Of a stretch of DNA of 40,489 nt, positions 11,813 through 40,489 are shown piece after piece. Numbering within the stretch: position 1 is the first letter of the stretch; each line of letters opens with the position of its first letter. The DNA is from Bacteroidales bacterium (lineage in GTDB: Bacteria; Bacteroidota; Bacteroidia; Bacteroidales; UBA932). Below the pieces are notes generated by a model, which worked only from the letters and a program-made list of their open reading frames with translations, searched no databases and was not told the DNA's origin. Where the stretch lies: NCBI GenBank assembly GCA_017553545.1, contig JAFZKT010000049.1:1-40489 (forward strand), in the 5' to 3' direction. Position numbers and translations under genes: made by a program.

Positions 11813-12136
11813 ATGGAGGAAGGGAAGAAAAAAGACAGGTGGGCCTGGCTCAAGCGGAAGGATCACAATTATCTCCTGCCGTTCATCATTATAGTCACCG
11901 TGCCCGTCGCCCTGTGGCTGCTGTTTTTCGCTCCACACAACAGCGGTTTAATCTGGATTAAAGCGTCCATGGAGGAAAAAAACCAGCAGGTTGAAATAAC
12001 CCGTCTTCAAGCGGAGATAAAAGAACTGGAACGGGAAGTGGAAACCCTCAGGAACAATCTGGATTCCCTGGAAGCCTTCGCCCGGGAGACCTATCACTTC
12101 GCCGCTCCGGGCGACGATGTGTTCATCGTAGAATAG
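11813..12136 (+). CDS. Septum formation initiator family protein (FtsB/DivIC-like)
   Basis: 107 aa. A short basic cytoplasmic N-terminus, one membrane segment (about 21-40) and a periplasmic coiled coil (about 54-84, NQQVEITRLQAEIKELEREV...). This is the layout of FtsB/DivIC, bitopic proteins that join FtsL and FtsQ in the divisome. The C-terminus ends FARETYHFAAPGDDVFIVE; AREkYhm-type motifs are usual. Its last 43 bases overlap the convergent folP gene. Confidence 0.87.
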   Translation: MEEGKKKDRWAWLKRKDHNYLLPFIIIVTVPVALWLLFFAPHNSGLIWIKASMEEKNQQVEITRLQAEIKELEREVETLRNNLDSLEAFARETYHFAAPGDDVFIVE

Positions 12137-13044
12137 AGCCGGGCCGTCTGCACAGCAGCGGCGACATCGTGGACCCGCAGCCAGCGGGCACCCTTCTCAA
12201 GCGCCTTAAACTGAACGACCTGCGTTGCGGGCATCGCCTCTTCCGGGGTGATGCCCAGCGCTTTATAGACCATACTCTTGCGGGACAGCCCCACCAGCGT
12301 CTCCCTTTCCGGGAAGGCCGATGTCACCTCATCCAGCCTGTTCAGCAAAGCGTAATTCTGCTCCAGCGTCTTGGAAAAACCGAAGCCCGGGTCCGGCAGC
12401 CATTCGGCGACGCCGGCATCCTGCGCTTTAATGGCGAATTCCTTGAAATAATCAATGACCGCCCTCACCACGTCATCATAATCCGTCAGAGATTGCATGG
12501 TCTCGGGCGTTCCCCGCATGTGCATGGCCACATAGGGCAGCCCCAGCCGCCCGACAGTCTCCAACATCCGGGGATCCATCTGCCCCCCGCTAATGTCGTT
12601 CACAATGAACGGGCCGATAATATCATACGCCCGCCGCACGATTTCGGAGCGGTAGGTGTCGATGGAGATGGCGGGACTCTCCCCCCTGGGGGACTCCGCT
12701 TTGCTTCGCTCCGCTCCGGCCCCTCCCATTGTCTCCTGCGCCCCTCCGGGGCTTGTATCCAACGGGCCCCTCCCCCTACCCGAGTGCGGGGGTGCACACG
12801 CCCCCAGGGGGGAGTATCCCGCTATCTCCAACAGCACCGGTTCCAATCGGCGCCATTCCTCTTCCAGGGAGGGCTGAGGTGAGCCGGGACGGGTGGAACA
12901 AGCGCCGAGGTCCACCACATCGGCCCCTTCGGCGAAGAGGGCCTGGATGCGGGACAGGGCTTCGTCGGCCTTTGCCCGACTGCCGGCATAGAAAGAATCC
13001 GGCGTCAGGTTCAGAATGCCCATTATATGAATATTCCCGACCAT
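12094..13044 (-). CDS. folP: Dihydropteroate synthase with a ~45-aa in-frame repeat insertion
   Basis: 316 aa, against about 270-280 usual. Joins p-aminobenzoate to dihydropterin pyrophosphate in folate synthesis. Conserved parts: MGILNLTPDSFYAGS, GADVVDLGACSTRPGS, ISIDTYRSEIV, VNDISGG, MHMRGTP, DPGFGFSKT and RVHDV near the C-terminus. The extra length lies between EIAGY and SPAISIDTY (about residues 72-127): a Gly/Pro/Ala-rich stretch encoded by the palindromic element at 12664-12829, open throughout, so the enzyme is probably still made. The start may be 13044 or 13023 (MGILNLTPDSF); a -7 box at 13060-13053 favours a very short leader. The 3' end overlaps the convergent FtsB-like gene by 43 bases. 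Confidence 0.92.
   Translation of the reverse strand: MVGNIHIMGILNLTPDSFYAGSRAKADEALSRIQALFAEGADVVDLGACSTRPGSPQPSLEEEWRRLEPVLLEIAGYSPLGACAPPHSGRGRGPLDTSPGGAQETMGGAGAERSKAESPRGESPAISIDTYRSEIVRRAYDIIGPFIVNDISGGQMDPRMLETVGRLGLPYVAMHMRGTPETMQSLTDYDDVVRAVIDYFKEFAIKAQDAGVAEWLPDPGFGFSKTLEQNYALLNRLDEVTSAFPERETLVGLSRKSMVYKALGITPEEAMPATQVVQFKALEKGARWLRVHDVAAAVQTARLYSTMNTSSPGAAK
12664..12829 (-). repeat. Palindromic element inserted in folP (copy B)
   Basis: Outer arms 12664-12692 and 12801-12829 match at 26 of 29 positions. Read on the minus strand (the coding strand of folP), the core has GTGCACCCCCGCAC, GGTAGGGGGAGGGGCCC, a hairpin GCCCC-GGA-GGGGC (plus positions 12740-12752) and CAATGGGAGGGGCCGGAGC, matching blocks of the 39759 element in the same order. 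Arm sequences are unrelated to those of the other copies, yet complementary to each other. The folP frame reads through without a stop. Confidence 0.9.
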
Positions 13045-13052
13045 TTGCTTAG

Positions 13053-13060
13053 CAAAGGTA
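13053..13060 (-). promoter_or_regulatory. -7 promoter box of folP
   Basis: TACCTTTG on the minus strand fits TAnnTTTG exactly. The ATG at 13044 begins 8 bases after it, so a start there would be nearly leaderless; the alternative ATG at 13023 would leave about 25 bases. Confidence 0.55.
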
Positions 13061-13072
13061 CGGATATTTTTG

Positions 13073-13080
13073 TATATTTG
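13073..13080 (+). promoter_or_regulatory. -7 promoter box of tmk
   Basis: TATATTTG matches TAnnTTTG, 19 bases before the tmk ATG at 13100. A TTTG at 13044-13047 is 25 bases upstream, longer than the usual 19-20 spacing. It is back to back with the folP box. Confidence 0.55.
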
Positions 13081-13099
13081 TCCAGTTAAAGATCCAACT

Positions 13100-13777
13100 A
13101 TGCTCATCGTACTGGAAGGTCTTGACGGGGCCGGGAAATCCACCCAGGTCAGGCTGCTCAAGGAATATCTGCAGGAGCGCTGCGGCTCGCTGGAATACAT
13201 TCATTTCCCGCGCTACGACGCTCCCGTTTACGGGGATCTCATCTCCCGCTTCCTGCGGGGAGACTTCGGCGCCAATGACGCCGTGCACCCGCAATTGGTG
13301 GCCCTGCTTTTCGCCGAAGACCGCCACGGTGCGGCACCCGCCATCCGGAAAGCGCTGGAGGAAGGTAAGACCGTCCTGCTGGACCGCTACGTGTATTCCA
13401 ACATCGCCTACCAGTGCGCCAAGCTGCCTTTCGGCCCTGAACGCCGTCAGCTCAGAGACTGGATTTTCGACACCGAATACGGCATCTTCGATCTCCCGGA
13501 ACCGGACCTGAACCTGTTCCTGGACGTTCCCATCGGCTTTGTGGAGCAGAGCCTCACCCGTGAGCGGCACGGACAGGACCGCAACTATCTGGGCGGAGCG
13601 CAGGACATTCATGAAGCGTCCATCGCCTTCCAACAGGCCGTGCGGGACCTCTATGTGGGCGAAACAGCCCGCGATCCCCGTTTCCAGCGTATAGATTGCG
13701 CCGATGAAAACGGAGCCATGCTTCCCCCGGATGCCATTTTCCAGCGCGTCCGCGCCGCCGTAGACGCCGCCTTATGA
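13100..13777 (+). CDS. tmk: Thymidylate kinase
   Basis: 225 aa from ATG 13100 (MLIVLEGLDGAGKST); an upstream ATG at 13070 lies in the promoter. Phosphorylates dTMP to dTDP. The P-loop is EGLDGAGKST (about residues 6-15), the DRY/x motif is LLDRYVYSNIAYQ (about 93-105) and the lid is RERHGQDRNY. The lid contains basic residues, as in the E. coli-like class, while the P-loop carries Ala rather than Arg at the variable position. It overlaps the next gene by 4 bp (ATGA), so they are coupled. Confidence 0.95.
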   Translation: MLIVLEGLDGAGKSTQVRLLKEYLQERCGSLEYIHFPRYDAPVYGDLISRFLRGDFGANDAVHPQLVALLFAEDRHGAAPAIRKALEEGKTVLLDRYVYSNIAYQCAKLPFGPERRQLRDWIFDTEYGIFDLPEPDLNLFLDVPIGFVEQSLTRERHGQDRNYLGGAQDIHEASIAFQQAVRDLYVGETARDPRFQRIDCADENGAMLPPDAIFQRVRAAVDAAL

Positions 13778-22182: not shown

Positions 22183-22207
22183 TAGATTGTTTAGTGTCCA
22201 AAAAGAG

Positions 22208-23347
22208 ATGGATTTCATCCGGAGTGAAAGCATAGCCTGCCTGCGGCAGTGGATCGCCGACGCAAAGCGCTGCGCCGTGGTGAGCCATACCCATCCGGAC
22301 GGCGACGCCCTGGGCTCCACCGCAGGCCTGGCCCTCTTTCTGCAGACGCAAGGCAAGGATGTAACCTGCCTGTATCCGGACGCCATCGCGGCCAATCTGC
22401 GTTTCATCCTCCCGGAAGGCCTCCCCTTCCATATCCACAATGCGGAAAAGCATTCCGCGGAAGAATGTATTCTCAAGGCCGATTTAATCTTCCTGGTAGA
22501 CGCCAACAGCTTCTCCCGCACGGAAGGGATGGAATCCCTCCTGAAAGAGTCCAATGCCCGCAAGGTCCTCATTGACCACCACCTGAATCCGGACACGGAC
22601 AGCTTCGGCCTGGTCTTTTCCACCCCGGAAATCTCCTCCGCCTCGGAGGTGGTGTACTGGATATTAAAGAGCCTTCTGGAGGAGGGTGTTGTTCCGCCAA
22701 CCGTCGCTGCGCGACCCCTCCCGGTTCGCCGTGCCTCAGAGGAGGCACTGGCTACGGGCCCCTCCCTCTTACACGGCCGAGGGTGGCCATGGGTTGGCGG
22801 AACAACACCCTCCTCCATCGGCAGTGCACTCCTTACCGGCATGACCACGGACACCAACAACTTTGCGAATTCGGTGTTTCCCTCCACCTTGCAGATGGCA
22901 TCGGAGCTGCTGGCGGCAGGCGTGGACCGGGACGCCATCCTGCAGCAGGTGTATCAGAGTTACCGGGAAAACCGCGTACGGCTGATGGGTTATATGCAGA
23001 GCGAAGAAATGAAAGTGCTGCCCGAAGGCGGCGCCTATATGATTCTGACCAAGGCCATCCAGCACCGTTTTGACCTGCAGGAAGGCGAATCGGAAGGCCT
23101 GGTGAACGTACCGCTGAGCATCGGCAAAGTGCGGCTAAGCGTGCTCCTGAAAGAAGACGAAGGCCATTTCCGCGTGAGTGTACGCTCGAAACAAGGGACA
23201 TCGGCCCAGCAACTGGCCGTCAAATACTTTCACGGCGGCGGTCATGAAAATGCGGCCGGCGGCAAACTGTTCATCGGAGAGGATATTCCTTCGGCCGATG
23301 CCGCCGCGGAATATGTGGAACAATCCCTGAAAGCATTCCTGGGATGA
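22208..23347 (+). CDS. nrnA: DHH-family nanoRNase / pAp phosphatase with an in-frame repeat insertion
   Basis: 379 aa from ATG 22208. DHH/DHHA1 phosphoesterase that degrades 2-5-nt RNAs and dephosphorylates pAp. Metal motifs: SHTHPDGDALGS, FLVDANSF, VLIDHHLNPD and the DHHA1 signature GGGHENAAGG near the C-terminus. Family members are about 330-345 aa; the excess equals the 141-nt palindromic element at 22677-22817 (about residues 157-203), open in frame and placed between the LLEEG helix and IGSALLTGMTTDTNNF, a surface position ahead of the third metal motif. First gene of a plus-strand string; overlaps the next gene by 4 bp. Confidence 0.92.
   Translation: MDFIRSESIACLRQWIADAKRCAVVSHTHPDGDALGSTAGLALFLQTQGKDVTCLYPDAIAANLRFILPEGLPFHIHNAEKHSAEECILKADLIFLVDANSFSRTEGMESLLKESNARKVLIDHHLNPDTDSFGLVFSTPEISSASEVVYWILKSLLEEGVVPPTVAARPLPVRRASEEALATGPSLLHGRGWPWVGGTTPSSIGSALLTGMTTDTNNFANSVFPSTLQMASELLAAGVDRDAILQQVYQSYRENRVRLMGYMQSEEMKVLPEGGAYMILTKAIQHRFDLQEGESEGLVNVPLSIGKVRLSVLLKEDEGHFRVSVRSKQGTSAQQLAVKYFHGGGHENAAGGKLFIGEDIPSADAAAEYVEQSLKAFLG
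22677..22817 (-). repeat. Palindromic element inserted in nrnA (copy D)
   Basis: The arms 22677-22702 and 22792-22817 are perfectly complementary over 26 bp. Read on the minus strand, the core has CCACCCTCGG, GTAAGAGGGAGGGGCCCG, a hairpin GTGCCTC-CTCT-GAGGCAC (plus 22731-22748) and CCGGGAGGGGTCGCGCAGCGAC, the same block order as the 39759 and 12664 copies. Total 141 nt, a multiple of three. It is antisense to the host gene, yet the nrnA frame has no stop. The arm sequence is unlike that of any other copy. Confidence 0.92.
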
Positions 23348-28243: not shown

Positions 28244-28335
28244 GCATGTTATAAGCACTTTTCTTGCTCAAGATTGTCAGCACGAACCATCTTAAGCAAG
28301 TTTCTCCGGCTTGGTGTGCTTAAGATGGTCCAGTG
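28234..28335. repeat. Four-box inverted-repeat array (locus 2)
   Basis: Four boxes of the GACCATCTTAAGCAC type in alternating orientation, cores at 28239 (+), 28267 (-, CTCAAG), 28291 (+) and 28319 (-); spacings 28, 24, 28. Same design as locus 1 at 94-190. It fills the gap from the serine hydrolase stop to the polA promoter. The two loci do not share the spacer sequences, so only the boxes and spacing are kept. Confidence 0.8.
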
Positions 28336-35806: not shown

Positions 35807-36273
35807 TTAATCTTCTGACTGTCGGGAAGACCGACGTGAAATGGGTAAAGGAAGGCCTGGACGTGTATGCGTCCCGGCTGAAGCACTACGTACCCTTTTC
35901 CGTGACGGAGATACCGGAGCTGAAAAAGGTGTCCGCGCTGAGTCACCGGCAAATCAAGGAGAAGGAAGGTGAACTGATCCTGAAACAGCTGGCCCCCCAG
36001 GACACGCTGGTTCTTCTGGACGAACATGGAACGGAATTCCGCTCCCTGGAATTCGCCGCCTGGCTGGAAAAACAGCTGGCCGGCAGCGGAAAGAACCTGG
36101 TATTCGTCATCGGCGGCGCTTACGGTTTTTCAGAAGAAGTCTACAAAAGGGCTGATGGAAAGCTTTCCCTTTCCAAAATGACCTATTCGCACCAGTTGGT
36201 CCGCACGGTGTTCGCCGAACAACTCTACCGCGCCTTCACCATCCTGAAAGGAGAGCCTTACCACCATGAATAG
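35800..36273 (+). CDS. rlmH: 23S rRNA (pseudouridine(1915)-N(3))-methyltransferase
   Basis: 157 aa from MTINLLTVGKTDVKWVKEGL (start 35800). SPOUT-class methyltransferase acting on assembled ribosomes at helix 69. Motifs: DTLVLLDEHGTEFRSLEFAAWL, NLVFVIGGAYGFSEEVYKRA (the knotted SAM site) and LSLSKMTYSHQLVRTVFAEQLYRAF, with the usual YHHE at the C-terminus. Length matches the family. The ATG lies inside a short palindromic repeat; an upstream in-frame ATG-less extension (from 35743) overlaps the promoter. It overlaps the kinase gene by 8 bp. Confidence 0.96.
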   Translation: MTINLLTVGKTDVKWVKEGLDVYASRLKHYVPFSVTEIPELKKVSALSHRQIKEKEGELILKQLAPQDTLVLLDEHGTEFRSLEFAAWLEKQLAGSGKNLVFVIGGAYGFSEEVYKRADGKLSLSKMTYSHQLVRTVFAEQLYRAFTILKGEPYHHE

Positions 36274-39200
36274 ACGCGAGCGCATAAGCCGATGGATATC
36301 GACGGCCCTGGCGGCCGCCGCAGCCATCGTACTGGCCATTTCCCTCCTCACCGGCAGCCGCCGGGCCAATCTGGAGGGCGCCGCGGAAGATCTGGGCCGG
36401 GATATCGAGAGGCGGGCCACGATGCTGGACAGCTATATCCAGGAAGCGCTGAAGAAGAAGCCGGAAAACTGGAAAGGACTCCGGAAACTCCCGGAAGATA
36501 TGGTGGTGTACCGCTTCCGGGCGGATACCCTCCAGGGCTGGGCCAACCAATTCCCCATCCACAGCGAGGATCTCCGGCCCCGGACGCTGATACAGCGGCT
36601 GGGAGATTCGCGCGACAACCTGACCTCTCCCCTGGCCAACGTCTCCGAACAATTCTCCTTCATGAACATGGGGCCCAAGTGGTTCCTGGTAAAAGCCGTT
36701 GAGGGAGAAGACTGCAAGGTAATCGCCGGCCTGGAAATCGTGAACGAACTGCAGGCGGGATCCATCAACGGGGCCAATCGGCATTTCCATCTGGACACCC
36801 GCTATACCATCCGCCCCATTTCCACCAGCGTAGGAGAGCCCGTCGTCATCGGGGGCGTTCCCCTGATGAAACTCACGGCGGAGACCATGAGCGAGCCCCA
36901 TCAACCCTTGTCGGCCCTCACCTGGCTGGCCGTAGCCCTGCTGTTGAGCGCTTCGCTGATGGTCCTCCGCACCCGGCCGAACCGCCTGTGGCTGATCATC
37001 GTGCTGACCGTTCAGCTGGCTTTGCTGGGATGGCTTTATTTCTACGGTCACAGACTCACGCAGGTTTCCCAATTCTTCTCTCCCCTGCTGTACGCCGACG
37101 GACAAATACTCTATTCGCTGGGCTCGCTGGTACTGCTGAACCTGGCCCTGACGCTGGTGGTAGTGGATTTCTATCTGGTCAGGAAGACCATTCTCAAGAG
37201 CTTTCTCCATCGGAAACGCTGGCTGCAGTGGGTGGCGTCCGTGCTGATTGCACTGACTTTCGCCGCCGTTTGCGTCCACATCCACTATACCTTCCGCAGC
37301 GTTCAGTACAACTCCAACATCACGCTGGAGCTTTATAAGGTGGTCCTCCTCTCGCAGGAAACCGCACTGGTCTATCTGAGTTTCCTGTCGCTGTCGCTCA
37401 CCCTGCCGCTTCTGCTGCAGATGCTCGCGCCGCTGGTAAAGAATCTCTTCGGCATCCGCTATGACGCCTTTTCCCTGCCCGGCCGCATCCTGTATGCCTT
37501 CGCCGTGGGCGCCTACTTCGTCACCGCATCGGCCACGATGGGCTTCCTGAAAGAACAGCAGCGTGTGGACGTGTGGTCCAACCGCCTGGCGATGGACCGG
37601 GACATCGGCCTGGAAATCCAGCTTCGCGCCGCGGAAGGGGCCATTGCCGACGACCCGATGATGGGAGCCCTGTCCGTGCTGGACGGAAGCGAAGACCTTC
37701 TGCGAAACCGTCTGGTGGGGAACTTCATGGGCCGTATCTCACAGGACTACGACATTGCCGTATTCCGCGCAGGGGGCAACAACATTTCCACCACCTATCT
37801 CCTCATGGAACGCGTCCGCGACGGGAAGGAGCTGGGCGAAGGCTCGCATTTCTTCTACAACTCCCTGGGCAGCGGCCGCGTCTCATACACAGGCATCTTC
37901 ACCTACTATGACCGCTTATACGGGGCGAACACCATCCTGATTTCGGTGGAATCCAAGCACAACCGCGAGGACCGCGGCTACCTGAGTCTGCTGGGTATTG
38001 CCGATCCAGGCCGCGTGAGTCTGCCACCCGTCTATTCCTGGGCCAAGTATGTGGACAGACGGCTGGTTCAATATAAGGGCGCCTACCCCTATCCCACCAT
38101 TCTTGAAGGGGCCTTGCAGCAGTCGGGACACGCCGAAGAAGACGGTTGGACCCATTTTGTGAACCAGGTGTCGGAGGAAGAGGTCGTCGTCCTCTCCCGT
38201 CCTGCCACGGAGCCGCTCTACCTGGTGGTGGAGGGCATCCTCTTTGCCATCGTGTCGTTCCTCGCCATGTCGGTCCTGGGCTGGAGAAGGAAGAGAACCG
38301 GAGGCCGGCGCTATTATCAGACCCGTATCGGCCTGGTGGTCTATATCTCCCTCATCCTCACCCTGGTGGCCATGGCCGTGTTCAGCGTCTGGTTTGTCTA
38401 CCGGCGCAACAACGCCGACATGGAAAGCATCATGACCGCGCGCATCAACACGCTGCAGTCCATGCTTCAGGAGCATCTCCGGATGGTCGAGGCACCGGAA
38501 GACCTCACCCAGGCCGATGTCCGCAGCGCGGTGGAGACGGTGGGCAACAACCTCAAGTGCGACATCTCGCTCTTCGACATTTCCGGCAAGCTGCTGATGA
38601 GCACCACTCCGGAAGTATATGACCGGATGATCCTGGGGCATCTGCTGGATGACAATGCCTATAACAGCATCATATACAGCCATAAACGCTTCTGCATTCA
38701 GCCCGAACGGGTGGGAAGGCGGCGTTATTACGCGCTCTGCGCCCCGCTGATGAACAGCGAGGGCCGGATGGTGGCCATCGCCTCGTCTCCGTTCTCGGAT
38801 TTCACCGCGGACCTGGAAACGGAAGCCGCCCTGCACGTAGCCATCATCATCGTCATTTTCCTCCTGCTCCTGCTGATTTCCCGCTTCGTCACCTTCGAGG
38901 TGGTGCGGCGGATGTTCCAGCCCCTCCAGGAACTGCGGCGGAAGATGACGGTTTCGGAAGTCTCCTCCCTGGAACCGCTCCAGTACACGCAGGACGATGA
39001 AATCACCCCGCTGGTGGAAGCCTACAACCGGATGGTTCAGTCGCTGGGTGAGAGCTCCCTGCGCCTGGCGCAGGCCGAGCGTGACAAGGCCTGGACGGAT
39101 ATGGCCCGCCGCGTGGCGCATGACCTGAAGAACCCGCTCACGCCCATCAAATTGCAGTTGCAGATGCTCATGCGGATGAAGGCCGCCGACAACCCCGCCT

Positions 39201-39754
39201 GGAAAGAGCGCTTCGACGAAGTGGCCGACACAATCCTCTACCATGTGGATCTGCTGGCAGATTCGGCCGACCAATTCTCCACCTTCGCCAAACTCTACGA
39301 CCAACAGAGCGAACGGCTGGACCTGGATGCCCTGGTGCAGCAGGAAGTGGCCCTGTTCGATGCCCGCGAGGATGTGCAGGTGGACTACTTCGGCCTGTCT
39401 GACGCATGGGTATCGGCCCCCCGCCCGCAACTGATGAGGGTGGTGGTTAACCTCCTGACCAACGCCATCCAGGCGATGGAAGGCCAGGAAGGCGAAAAAC
39501 GCCTGGTGGTCGCCGTCCGCAACGCCGTGGAAGACGGCTTCTATGACATTGTGGTGGAAGACAACGGACCGGGTGTGGCCGAAGACCAGCAGGAGCAGAT
39601 CTTCACCCCGGACTTCACTACCAAGAGCAGCGGCAGCGGCCTCGGCCTTGCCATCTGCCGCCGCATCGTGGAGCACTGCGGCGGGTCCATCTCCTACAGC
39701 CGTTCCTTCACCCTGGGCGGTGCCTGCTTCACGGTGAAGTATCCCAAAGCTTAG
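36266..39754 (+). CDS. Large membrane sensor histidine kinase, NtrY-like
   Basis: 1162 aa. An N-terminal membrane segment (about 17-38) and a periplasmic stretch to about 205 are followed by six membrane segments (about 211-425), a second large extracytoplasmic domain (about 430-650), two segments (about 651-711), a third sensor domain and a last segment (about 855-875). A HAMP linker (about 876-930) leads to the H-box MARRVAHDLKNPLTPIKLQ (His952), N-box LLTNAIQAMEGQEG, and G-boxes DNGPGVAEDQ, TKSSGSGLGLAICRRIVEH. The H-box context is that of NtrY-like kinases. No response regulator lies nearby, so it is an orphan. The ligand is unknown. A palindromic element starts 5 bases after the stop and may end the transcript. 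Confidence 0.9.
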   Translation: MNRRERISRWISTALAAAAAIVLAISLLTGSRRANLEGAAEDLGRDIERRATMLDSYIQEALKKKPENWKGLRKLPEDMVVYRFRADTLQGWANQFPIHSEDLRPRTLIQRLGDSRDNLTSPLANVSEQFSFMNMGPKWFLVKAVEGEDCKVIAGLEIVNELQAGSINGANRHFHLDTRYTIRPISTSVGEPVVIGGVPLMKLTAETMSEPHQPLSALTWLAVALLLSASLMVLRTRPNRLWLIIVLTVQLALLGWLYFYGHRLTQVSQFFSPLLYADGQILYSLGSLVLLNLALTLVVVDFYLVRKTILKSFLHRKRWLQWVASVLIALTFAAVCVHIHYTFRSVQYNSNITLELYKVVLLSQETALVYLSFLSLSLTLPLLLQMLAPLVKNLFGIRYDAFSLPGRILYAFAVGAYFVTASATMGFLKEQQRVDVWSNRLAMDRDIGLEIQLRAAEGAIADDPMMGALSVLDGSEDLLRNRLVGNFMGRISQDYDIAVFRAGGNNISTTYLLMERVRDGKELGEGSHFFYNSLGSGRVSYTGIFTYYDRLYGANTILISVESKHNREDRGYLSLLGIADPGRVSLPPVYSWAKYVDRRLVQYKGAYPYPTILEGALQQSGHAEEDGWTHFVNQVSEEEVVVLSRPATEPLYLVVEGILFAIVSFLAMSVLGWRRKRTGGRRYYQTRIGLVVYISLILTLVAMAVFSVWFVYRRNNADMESIMTARINTLQSMLQEHLRMVEAPEDLTQADVRSAVETVGNNLKCDISLFDISGKLLMSTTPEVYDRMILGHLLDDNAYNSIIYSHKRFCIQPERVGRRRYYALCAPLMNSEGRMVAIASSPFSDFTADLETEAALHVAIIIVIFLLLLLISRFVTFEVVRRMFQPLQELRRKMTVSEVSSLEPLQYTQDDEITPLVEAYNRMVQSLGESSLRLAQAERDKAWTDMARRVAHDLKNPLTPIKLQLQMLMRMKAADNPAWKERFDEVADTILYHVDLLADSADQFSTFAKLYDQQSERLDLDALVQQEVALFDAREDVQVDYFGLSDAWVSAPRPQLMRVVVNLLTNAIQAMEGQEGEKRLVVAVRNAVEDGFYDIVVEDNGPGVAEDQQEQIFTPDFTTKSSGSGLGLAICRRIVEHCGGSISYSRSFTLGGACFTVKYPKA

Positions 39755-39758
39755 GAGC

Positions 39759-39905
39759 GGGAGGAAGGATTCGTTCCGGGGGGCTTGTCCACCCCCGGAC
39801 GAGTATAGGGGGAGGGGCCCAGAACAGTGCCCGGAGGGCACGGTGCAATGGGAGGGGCCGAAGGAGCGAAGCGACTGAGTCCCCCCGGAACGAATCCTTC
39901 CTCCC
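39759..39905 (+). repeat. Palindromic element downstream of the histidine kinase (copy A, reference copy)
   Basis: The arms 39759-39783 and 39881-39905 are perfectly complementary over 25 bp. The core holds CCACCCCCGGACGAGTATA, GGGGGAGGGGCCC (39808-39820), a hairpin GTGCCC-GGA-GGGCAC (39827-39841) and AATGGGAGGGGCCGAAGG followed by AGCGAAGCGACTGAG. Total 147 nt. It begins right after the kinase stop and ends 15 bases before the -33 box of efp, so it could double as a terminator. G-runs could form a quadruplex. Confidence 0.93.
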
Positions 39906-39995: not shown

Positions 39996-40489
39996 ATGGC
40001 AACAACTGCTGATCTGAAGAACGGAATGTACATCATGTTCAACGGAAAACCCTGTGTGGTGGTGTACTTCCAGCACGTGAAACCCGGCAAGGGCCCGGCC
40101 TTTGTCAAAACCAAACTGCGCAACCTGGAAAACGGCCGCATCCTGGAGAACACCTTCACCGCGGGCGTAAAACTGGACACCATCAGCGTAGAGCGTCGTC
40201 CCTATCAGTTCCTGTATGACGACGGCGAGTCCTTCAACTTCATGCACGAAGAGACTTATGAGCAGATTACCCTTCCCCACGACGTAGTGGAGAACGCGGA
40301 CCTGATGAAGGAAGGCCAGCGCGTGGAAATGATGTTCCTCACCGAACCCGAAGAACGCTGCCTCACCTGCGAACTTCCCACCTATGTGACCCTGGAGGTT
40401 ACCTACAGCGAGCCCGCCGTGAAAGGCAACACAGCCTCCACCAGCGCCCTGAAGGAAGTCACCCTGGAGACCGGCGCCAAGATCATGGT
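39996..40489 (+). CDS. efp: Elongation factor P (3' end beyond the window)
   Basis: The first 164 residues of about 188; the frame is open to the last base. EF-P relieves ribosomes stalled at polyproline. MATTADLKNGMYIMFNGKP opens the KOW-like domain I; KPGKGPAFVKTK holds the tip lysine (Lys32) that is modified in many bacteria; RRPYQFLYDDGESFNFM begins the OB domains. No epmAB or ymfI/earP-like modification gene is seen in the window. It starts a new transcript after the palindromic element. Confidence 0.95.
   Translation, partial: MATTADLKNGMYIMFNGKPCVVVYFQHVKPGKGPAFVKTKLRNLENGRILENTFTAGVKLDTISVERRPYQFLYDDGESFNFMHEETYEQITLPHDVVENADLMKEGQRVEMMFLTEPEERCLTCELPTYVTLEVTYSEPAVKGNTASTSALKEVTLETGAKIM

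Follow-up and report, generated by a model that had tools for sequence, protein, structure and literature searches.

Integron attC sites and the ends of IS200/IS605 elements are recombination substrates that are recognized as folded single-stranded DNA, and in attC sites the structure is conserved more than the sequence. Rickettsia palindromic elements (RPEs), which were reportedly described by Ogata et al. in 2000 and 2002, have no mobilizer that we know of, and to our knowledge it is an open question how protein-coding palindromes such as these move. According to the accessible parts of two articles, RPEs are about 150 bp long, occur in many copies and several families, and lie inside genes in nearly half of the cases, with possible in-frame fusions (PMC10969869, PMC6649704). 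An excerpt of the second article also deals with coding palindromes of nematomorph mitochondria, in which both arms encode conserved protein and for which conversion is the mechanism discussed (PMC6649704). GTAG- and CGTC-tagged repeats are a feature of REP/RAYT systems in the available part of a third article (PMC3733652).

Here we analyze a window of 40,489 nt, which is contig C43 of a 1.76-Mb Bacteroidales draft genome (80.5% complete), and the family of palindromic elements that it bears. Like RPEs, this family is a multi-copy palindromic repeat of about 100–150 bp that sits in frame within unrelated conserved genes. It differs from RPEs in its Bacteroidales host, in its insertion in both orientations, in a constant pseudoknotted core with arms that are free in sequence, and in pairing that is kept through the turnover of the arms, whereas RPEs lose their repeat identity over time according to the passage available (PMC6649704). 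An earlier note on this DNA had pointed out the likeness to RPEs, and it is strengthened by two copies in the window, of which one lies in frame in folP and the other in an nrnA-like gene. When the two are set beside each other by their descriptions, the family works like RPEs and has one well-supported added feature, a fold that is conserved while the end sequence is free. In the nematomorph mitochondria, too, functional protein-coding genes contain long inverted repeats.

Similarly, the family shares with MITEs a short length, non-autonomy, terminal inverted repeats and an occurrence both between and within genes, but its terminal repeats are not constant (some copies do share arms) and a target-site duplication was not detected among 60 elements. 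REP/RAYT sequences are likewise palindromic, multi-copy and probably non-autonomous, with short loops, and Y1 transposases are abundant in the same genus; the window element differs in being longer, in its pseudoknot and long variable arms, in the location of almost half of its own-genome copies within genes, and in that no Y1 transposase was found in any of the four other hosts tested. From IS200/IS605 ends and attC sites it differs in structure and location and in having no linked enzyme.

Elements in the Window

The window contains three complete copies, at 39759–39905 on the forward strand (copy 1) and at 12664–12829 (copy 2) and 22677–22817 (copy 3) on the reverse strand; all three had been reported in the earlier note, and all held up when checked base by base. 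Their arm sequences are unlike one another, and the core is common to all three. In copy 1, the left arm (39759–39783) matches the right arm (39881–39905) as an inverted repeat at 25 of 25 positions. The hairpin-1 loop ACCCCC lies at 39791–39796, and its CCCCC can form a pseudoknot with the GGGGG at 39808–39812. Core block 1 (GGGGGAGGGGCCC) occupies 39808–39820, hairpin 2 (CCC...GGG) 39818–39852, core block 2 (GGGAGGGGCCG) 39850–39860, and the hairpin-3 region, with GCGAAGC inside it, 39858–39880. Copy 1 starts 5 bases past the end of a sensor-kinase-like ORF (36266–39754, named by reading), and the ATG that opens the next ORF is located downstream of it at 39996.

Copy 2 is inserted in frame within folP, which encodes dihydropteroate synthase (ORF 12094–13200, reverse strand, 368 aa), and lies on the gene's own strand. 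Its 29-nt arms (12801–12829 with 12664–12692) match at 26 of 29 positions, with three mismatches, and its core blocks 1 and 2 are at 12764–12776 and 12717–12727. Copy 3 is also in frame, within an nrnA-like DHH phosphoesterase gene (ORF 22187–23347, forward strand, 386 aa), and is antisense to that gene. Its arms (22792–22817 with 22677–22702) match at 26 of 26 positions, the hairpin-1 loop, located by reading, is ACCCTC at 22779–22784, and core blocks 1 and 2 are at 22756–22768 and 22712–22722. A fourth element on the forward strand (1 to approximately 60) is cut by the contig end, and only its 3' half is present, with core block 2 at 4–13, hairpin 3 and part of the right arm.

REP-like inverted repeats of ACCATCTTAAGC and GCTTAAGATGGT are found at 96–160 and 28286–28330 of the window and in the left flank of the own-genome copy L005, and at two of these three places they adjoin elements.

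Copy Number and Distribution

The core GGGAGGGGCCC occurs at 24 sites in the own genome, against 2 for the reversed control, and 19 of the 24 sites are complete elements with arms; apart from a few exceptions, no two copies have the same arms. The elements also break assemblies, as the ends of several contigs of this draft genome fall within them. The median length is 134.5 bp (range 98–212; 58 elements). An exact core pattern was matched in 39 of 81 genomes, own genome included, belonging to 2 of 33 genera, and the reversed control was matched in none. When 53 copies were turned into a covariance model, it matched 109 of the 121 sampled genomes of the window's genus (24 matches in the own genome, which is included), and the matches sum to 1,454 with at most 33 candidates scored per genome. 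Across the order, the model matched 5 of 295 sampled genomes, own genome included, in five genera and four families; with 13 candidates scored per genome these counts are low, and the own genome gave 12. Among the matches listed by name are many MAGs of Bacteroidales from rumen and gut, as well as one Candidatus Cryptobacteroides. The genus of the window may be Cryptobacteroides. The proposal of the earlier note, a family with a fixed core and variable, complementary arms and hairpins, is therefore borne out by many copies with varying arms, both in the own genome and across its genus.

No Rfam family matches the window at the gathering score, with sub-threshold hits only for copy 1, and a known RNA family was rejected on this ground. 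Phage carriage was not supported either: a viral scan listed at least 120 stretches, and none of those fetched combined the pseudoknot with hairpin 1. No description of the family was found among the papers listed from the openly accessible journal literature on Bacteroidales palindromic repeats, repeats of Cryptobacteroides, REP/RAYT, protein-coding palindromes, compensatory arms and RPE structure, and the papers matched by the core strings concern human or Salmonella research.

Motifs that recall the core are also seen in other bacteria. Several alphaproteobacterial loci (L063, L131, L160 and others) bear a repeat of the form CCCTCTCCC...GGGAGAGGGAGGGGCCC-hairpin-GGGAGGGTGAGGG, in several copies in some stretches, the central motif of which is common to the window element. 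Three Microbacterium loci (L059, L121 and L151) and one of Caloramator (L072) have AGGGG-hairpin-AGGG cores whose paired arms vary from locus to locus, and the fold round these cores differs from that of the window element.

A Pseudoknotted Core and Covarying Pairs

The order of parts in the element is arm, hairpin 1 with the loop RCCCNN, a short linker, NNGGG, AGGGG, hairpin 2 (CCC...GGG), AGGG, usually hairpin 3, and the second arm. The hairpin-1 loop and NNGGG form a pseudoknot of five pairs. Because the copies used for the pseudoknot count and for the alignment were found by the exact core, the invariance of GGGAGGGGCCC and GGGAGGG is by construction, and three pseudoknot pairs and three hairpin-2 pairs are fixed by how the copies were found. 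The variable positions of the pseudoknot, which are the last two loop-1 bases and the dinucleotide just upstream of the first GGG, are both paired in 89 of 90 copies (87 Watson-Crick, 2 with one G•T), against a mean of 33.8 and a maximum of 53 in 10,000 shuffles. The dinucleotide pairs are diverse, with TC/GA in 33 copies, GT/AC in 25, CC/GG in 10, AC/GT in 7, GC/GC in 6 and AT/AT in 6. The 90 copies were obtained from 181 parsed rows, of which 49 were dropped as a different alphaproteobacterial repeat with GGGAGGGGCCC-hairpin-GGGAGGG and 42 of the other 132 were left out of the count for lack of an RCCCNN hairpin 1. Forty of these 42 rows have arm scores of at most 11.5, with hits in unrelated genomes among them; the remaining two, L050 (arm score 17) and L089 (25), are clear family members with strong arms and no RCCCNN loop, and stand outside the 90.

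In the 53-copy alignment, 89.9% of the cells are paired, compared with 68.7% after shuffling, and the covariation score of 0.556 lies above those of the shuffled (0.180) and slid (at most 0.142) controls. Two-sided changes are observed at 23 of 30 pairs, including all 12 arm pairs. The variable yet pairing inner hairpins that the earlier note described in three copies are likewise supported. The loop-1 purine and a linker base are A-A in 26 copies, G-G in 23 and other combinations in 4, which hints at a tertiary contact, with the reservation that the pattern largely tracks the two main subfamilies.

Folded as single strands with DNA parameters, copies 1, 2 and 3 reach z-scores of −6.9, −4.0 and −8.7, each better than 200 of 200 dinucleotide shuffles, and copy 1, the one copy folded with RNA parameters, reaches −7.8. 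The folding program cannot draw pseudoknots, and the best structure that it drew for copies 1 and 3 contains the arms and the loop-1/NNGGG pairing in place of hairpin 1.

Mismatch Asymmetry between the Strands

To read the strand from the mismatches, we counted them in 124 arm pairs, after removing the four outermost columns of the alignment and the single innermost column. Mismatches of the G•A/A•G type number 104, whereas their mirror images C•T/T•C number 10 (P = 7×10−21), and G•T mismatches number 74 against 30 of A•C (P = 2×10−5); both P values overstate independence because the copies are related by descent. In 19 of the 124 arm pairs, a G-N-A motif faces another G-N-A. The elements from 60 fetched regions that entered these counts, as well as the strand-bias, duplication and length counts, had been selected for the pseudoknot and are no evidence for the pseudoknot itself.

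If repair or template switching acted alone, each mismatch should be as frequent as its mirror image on the opposite strand. The asymmetry thus indicates that selection sees one single strand, and neither a cruciform nor a repair artefact. The strand that runs from hairpin 1 to hairpin 3 has to fold, and the direction of the asymmetry is hard to obtain otherwise. The asymmetric mismatches and the hairpin-1 loop pseudoknot, both absent from the earlier note, are the strongest evidence for a single-strand fold, and the selection on the structure of RNA or single-stranded DNA that the note had put forward is supported by the mismatches and by the covariation. As for the choice between DNA and RNA, 35 of the 90 copies have a three-base loop in hairpin 2, and 26 of the 35 loops are C-GNA-G, a triloop that is exceptionally stable in DNA. 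Mainly because of this stability we lean to single-stranded DNA, which is the least certain part of our interpretation.

It is unlikely that the paired arms are due to conversion at the DNA level, in which template switching at quasi-palindromes uses one arm to overwrite the other and the structure is not under selection. Such conversion would fit the perfect arms of 25 of 86 copies and the truB copy of G019, where by reading the right arm extends into the native coding sequence and is repeated in inverted form by the left arm, and in the accessible part of one article it is proposed for the coding palindromes of nematomorph mitochondria (PMC6649704). However, it treats the two strands alike, in conflict with the ratios of 104:10 and 74:30, and it leaves the pseudoknot unexplained, the pairing runs of which are not the arms of one hairpin. 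Conversion is disfavored as the sole cause, yet it may help to make arms perfect.

In-Frame Insertion in Housekeeping Genes

Of the 19 complete copies in the own genome, nine are inserted in conserved genes without closing the reading frame, five in sense and four in antisense orientation; by reading, the genes are truB, metG, an argE-like peptidase gene, tyrA, yggS, ygiQ, ribF, folP and nrnA. In five genomes, 28 of 60 elements lie within an ORF that extends for 40 or more residues to either side, a count that is an upper bound as some of these ORFs are spurious, such as the one across copy 1 of the window. The number of open frames among the six is 2.87 for the elements and 1.85 after shuffling.

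We also compared the same gene loops in relatives. The loops of folP in G028 and of metG, ygiQ and tyrA in G014 are free of elements, and in tyrA the relatives have 18–36 nt in place of 162. The folP gene of G019 carries a counterpart of copy 2 with changed arms, the truB and ygiQ loops of relatives carry members of the same family with other arms or in the opposite orientation, and quite different palindromes occupy the same loops in nrnA of G028 and G019 and in metG and tyrA of G019. These loops, which hold nothing, an other-armed copy or another palindrome in different genomes, therefore accept insertions repeatedly.

The different palindromes belong to a second family (L176, L178, L423 and L430; G028 and G019) that is in frame in the nrnA, metG and tyrA loops, with GCATTTGCCCGTACAGG and GTCGCGAAGCGAC as its core in G019 and a variant in G028, and its arms differ from locus to locus. 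Another repeat, of the TGTCATTCTGAGCG...GAATCT type, has in-frame copies in several housekeeping genes (L003 in truB; L417, L427, L413 and L415) and is translated as CHSERSEES-like peptides.

Arms and Possible Mobility

Two own-genome copies on different contigs, L006 and L023, agree in their 30-nt arms except at one or two positions, and their flanks (60 nt per side), with identities of 0.42 and 0.42 against shuffled means of 0.37, resemble each other no more than shuffled sequence does. In G174, three copies on three contigs have closely similar arms, with slight similarity also just outside the left arm, and in G226 two adjoining elements recur as a pair together with their arms. The arms can thus move along with the element, on evidence that is small, with one clean own-genome pair (L006/L023). 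The arms had been called locus-specific in the earlier note; they do vary between copies, and the similar arms of L006 and L023 and of the three G174 copies show that they are not always bound to a locus. Among seven related pairs, in which two copies were used twice, both partners have changed at 21 arm positions and a single partner at 12 (20 and 10 in six of the pairs, 1 and 2 in the seventh), so the divergence of the arms is largely compensatory.

The arms shared by L036 and L051 were rejected as evidence of this kind, since both loci have a second similar element upstream and a 218-nt block of 90% identity, and the two loci may be orthologous. Each of them holds two elements in the same arrangement in different genomes, possibly as orthologs and possibly as a composite unit, and L084 has flanking blocks in common with them. 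In G226, the two elements (L439 and L448) have different arms and opposite orientations, lie side by side and recur together at two places. Four copies in G075 (L446, L451, L455 and L459) share a further identical 87 nt downstream, which run into a terminator-like hairpin, and the mobile unit may be longer in this genome.

Could every insertion have copied its own flank into new arms? Such an inverted target duplication would agree with an own-genome subfamily in which the copies agree in the core and the innermost arm (GTCCGGGGG) but have sharply different outer arms, with the overlap of the G019 truB arm with native sequence, and with tyrA, where the short segment of the relatives would allow one 27-nt arm to be native. 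We regard it as improbable, as L006 and L023 have common arms in different flanks, the arms of the three G174 copies are closely similar although these copies lie at different sites, and at the same truB and ygiQ loops the arms of different species are unlike each other.

A target-site duplication was not detected in 60 elements (mean longest direct repeat 2.13, shuffled 2.16), and the G-rich strand holds 27 of 62 elements (P = 0.37), as judged from local GC skew, a weak proxy in draft genomes. The usual trace of transposition is thus missing, and one of lagging-strand insertion is not apparent by this proxy; these are real gaps in an account by transposition.

Search for a Mobilizing Enzyme

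The genomes of the genus are rich in Y1/RAYT-like proteins of about 290–320 aa, whose scores reach or slightly exceed the cut-off of Y1_Tnp and whose matches to NCBIfam REP_Tyr_transpos stay below the cut-off of that model. This expanded lineage (L363–L411) has up to 13 L363-type matches per genome, and several of its transposase genes carry or adjoin hairpins of their own. Exact-pattern elements are present in 37 of 43 genus genomes with a Y1 gene and in 1 of 6 without (P = 0.0013, Fisher's exact test). This correlation and the abundance of the proteins would be expected if IS200/IS605-type Y1 transposases (TnpA_REP) mobilized the element as a REP-like sequence. That origin nevertheless has little probability. 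Neither an L363-type protein nor a Y1_Tnp match was found in any of four element-bearing genomes outside the genus, which are 96–99% complete and have 6, 13, 3 and 5 model matches with 13 candidates scored in each. Three of the six genus genomes that lack the gene still have model matches (10 in G013, 4 in G030 and 5 in G046). Moreover, GGGAGGGGCCC occurs in none of 50 fetched transposase loci, and a GTAG or CGTC tag by a hairpin of 20–40 bp, the tag type given in the available part of the REP/RAYT article (PMC3733652), is not invariant in the alignment of elements. As a general requirement, RAYT was rejected on the four genomes outside the genus and the three within it, suggestive as the correlation is.

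Retrotransposition, with the folded strand as an RNA copied by reverse transcriptase, is the least probable origin of all, for in spite of an RNA-like structured fold with a pseudoknot and the tolerance of G-U on one strand, eight of nine genomes with elements (G174, G226, G256, G075, G000, G023, G047 and G004) gave no RVT_1 match, and reverse transcriptase was rejected as the mobilizer. Only G011 among the nine has RVT_1, the four genomes outside the genus are all without a match, and of five further genomes later matched by the covariance model one (G013) has it. The Y1/RAYT and RVT_1 families are both dispensable for the element.

An autonomous partner was also sought among 1,055 ORFs clustered from the 3-kb surroundings of 105 sites. 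By reading, there is no mobile gene among the 22 most recurrent neighbor clusters, which look like orthologous housekeeping neighborhoods, and for the cargo-like copy L009 no second half was found within its 3 kb.

Discussion

The explanation that we favor, and consider fairly probable, is that these are non-autonomous mobile elements recognized by the shape of a single strand, similar to RPEs but built on a pseudoknotted core that is conserved. What counts for their spread appears to be the shape and not the sequence of the ends. The substrate of transposition would be one folded single strand, from hairpin 1 to hairpin 3, in elements of about 100–210 nt, and a trans-acting enzyme would recognize the core and the shape instead of the ends. 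If the enzyme reads core and shape, the arms may drift freely in sequence and would yet stay paired in every mobile lineage. The copies observed in genes would be those that kept the reading frame, and the folded strand might be single-stranded DNA rather than RNA.

More tentatively, the family could represent a shape-recognized class of its own, with a terminal helix of free sequence on a pseudoknotted core, a mover that is neither Y1 nor RVT_1 (or catalysis by the strand itself), and in-frame loops of about 35–60 residues in housekeeping proteins throughout the genus. If this were true, the AGGGG-hairpin-AGGG cores with differing paired arms in Microbacterium and Caloramator would widen the principle beyond one order. 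The family offers a large set of natural data: covariation reveals the structure that is needed, the asymmetry of mismatches picks out the functional strand, and species can be compared for the loops at which their housekeeping enzymes tolerate dozens of additional residues.
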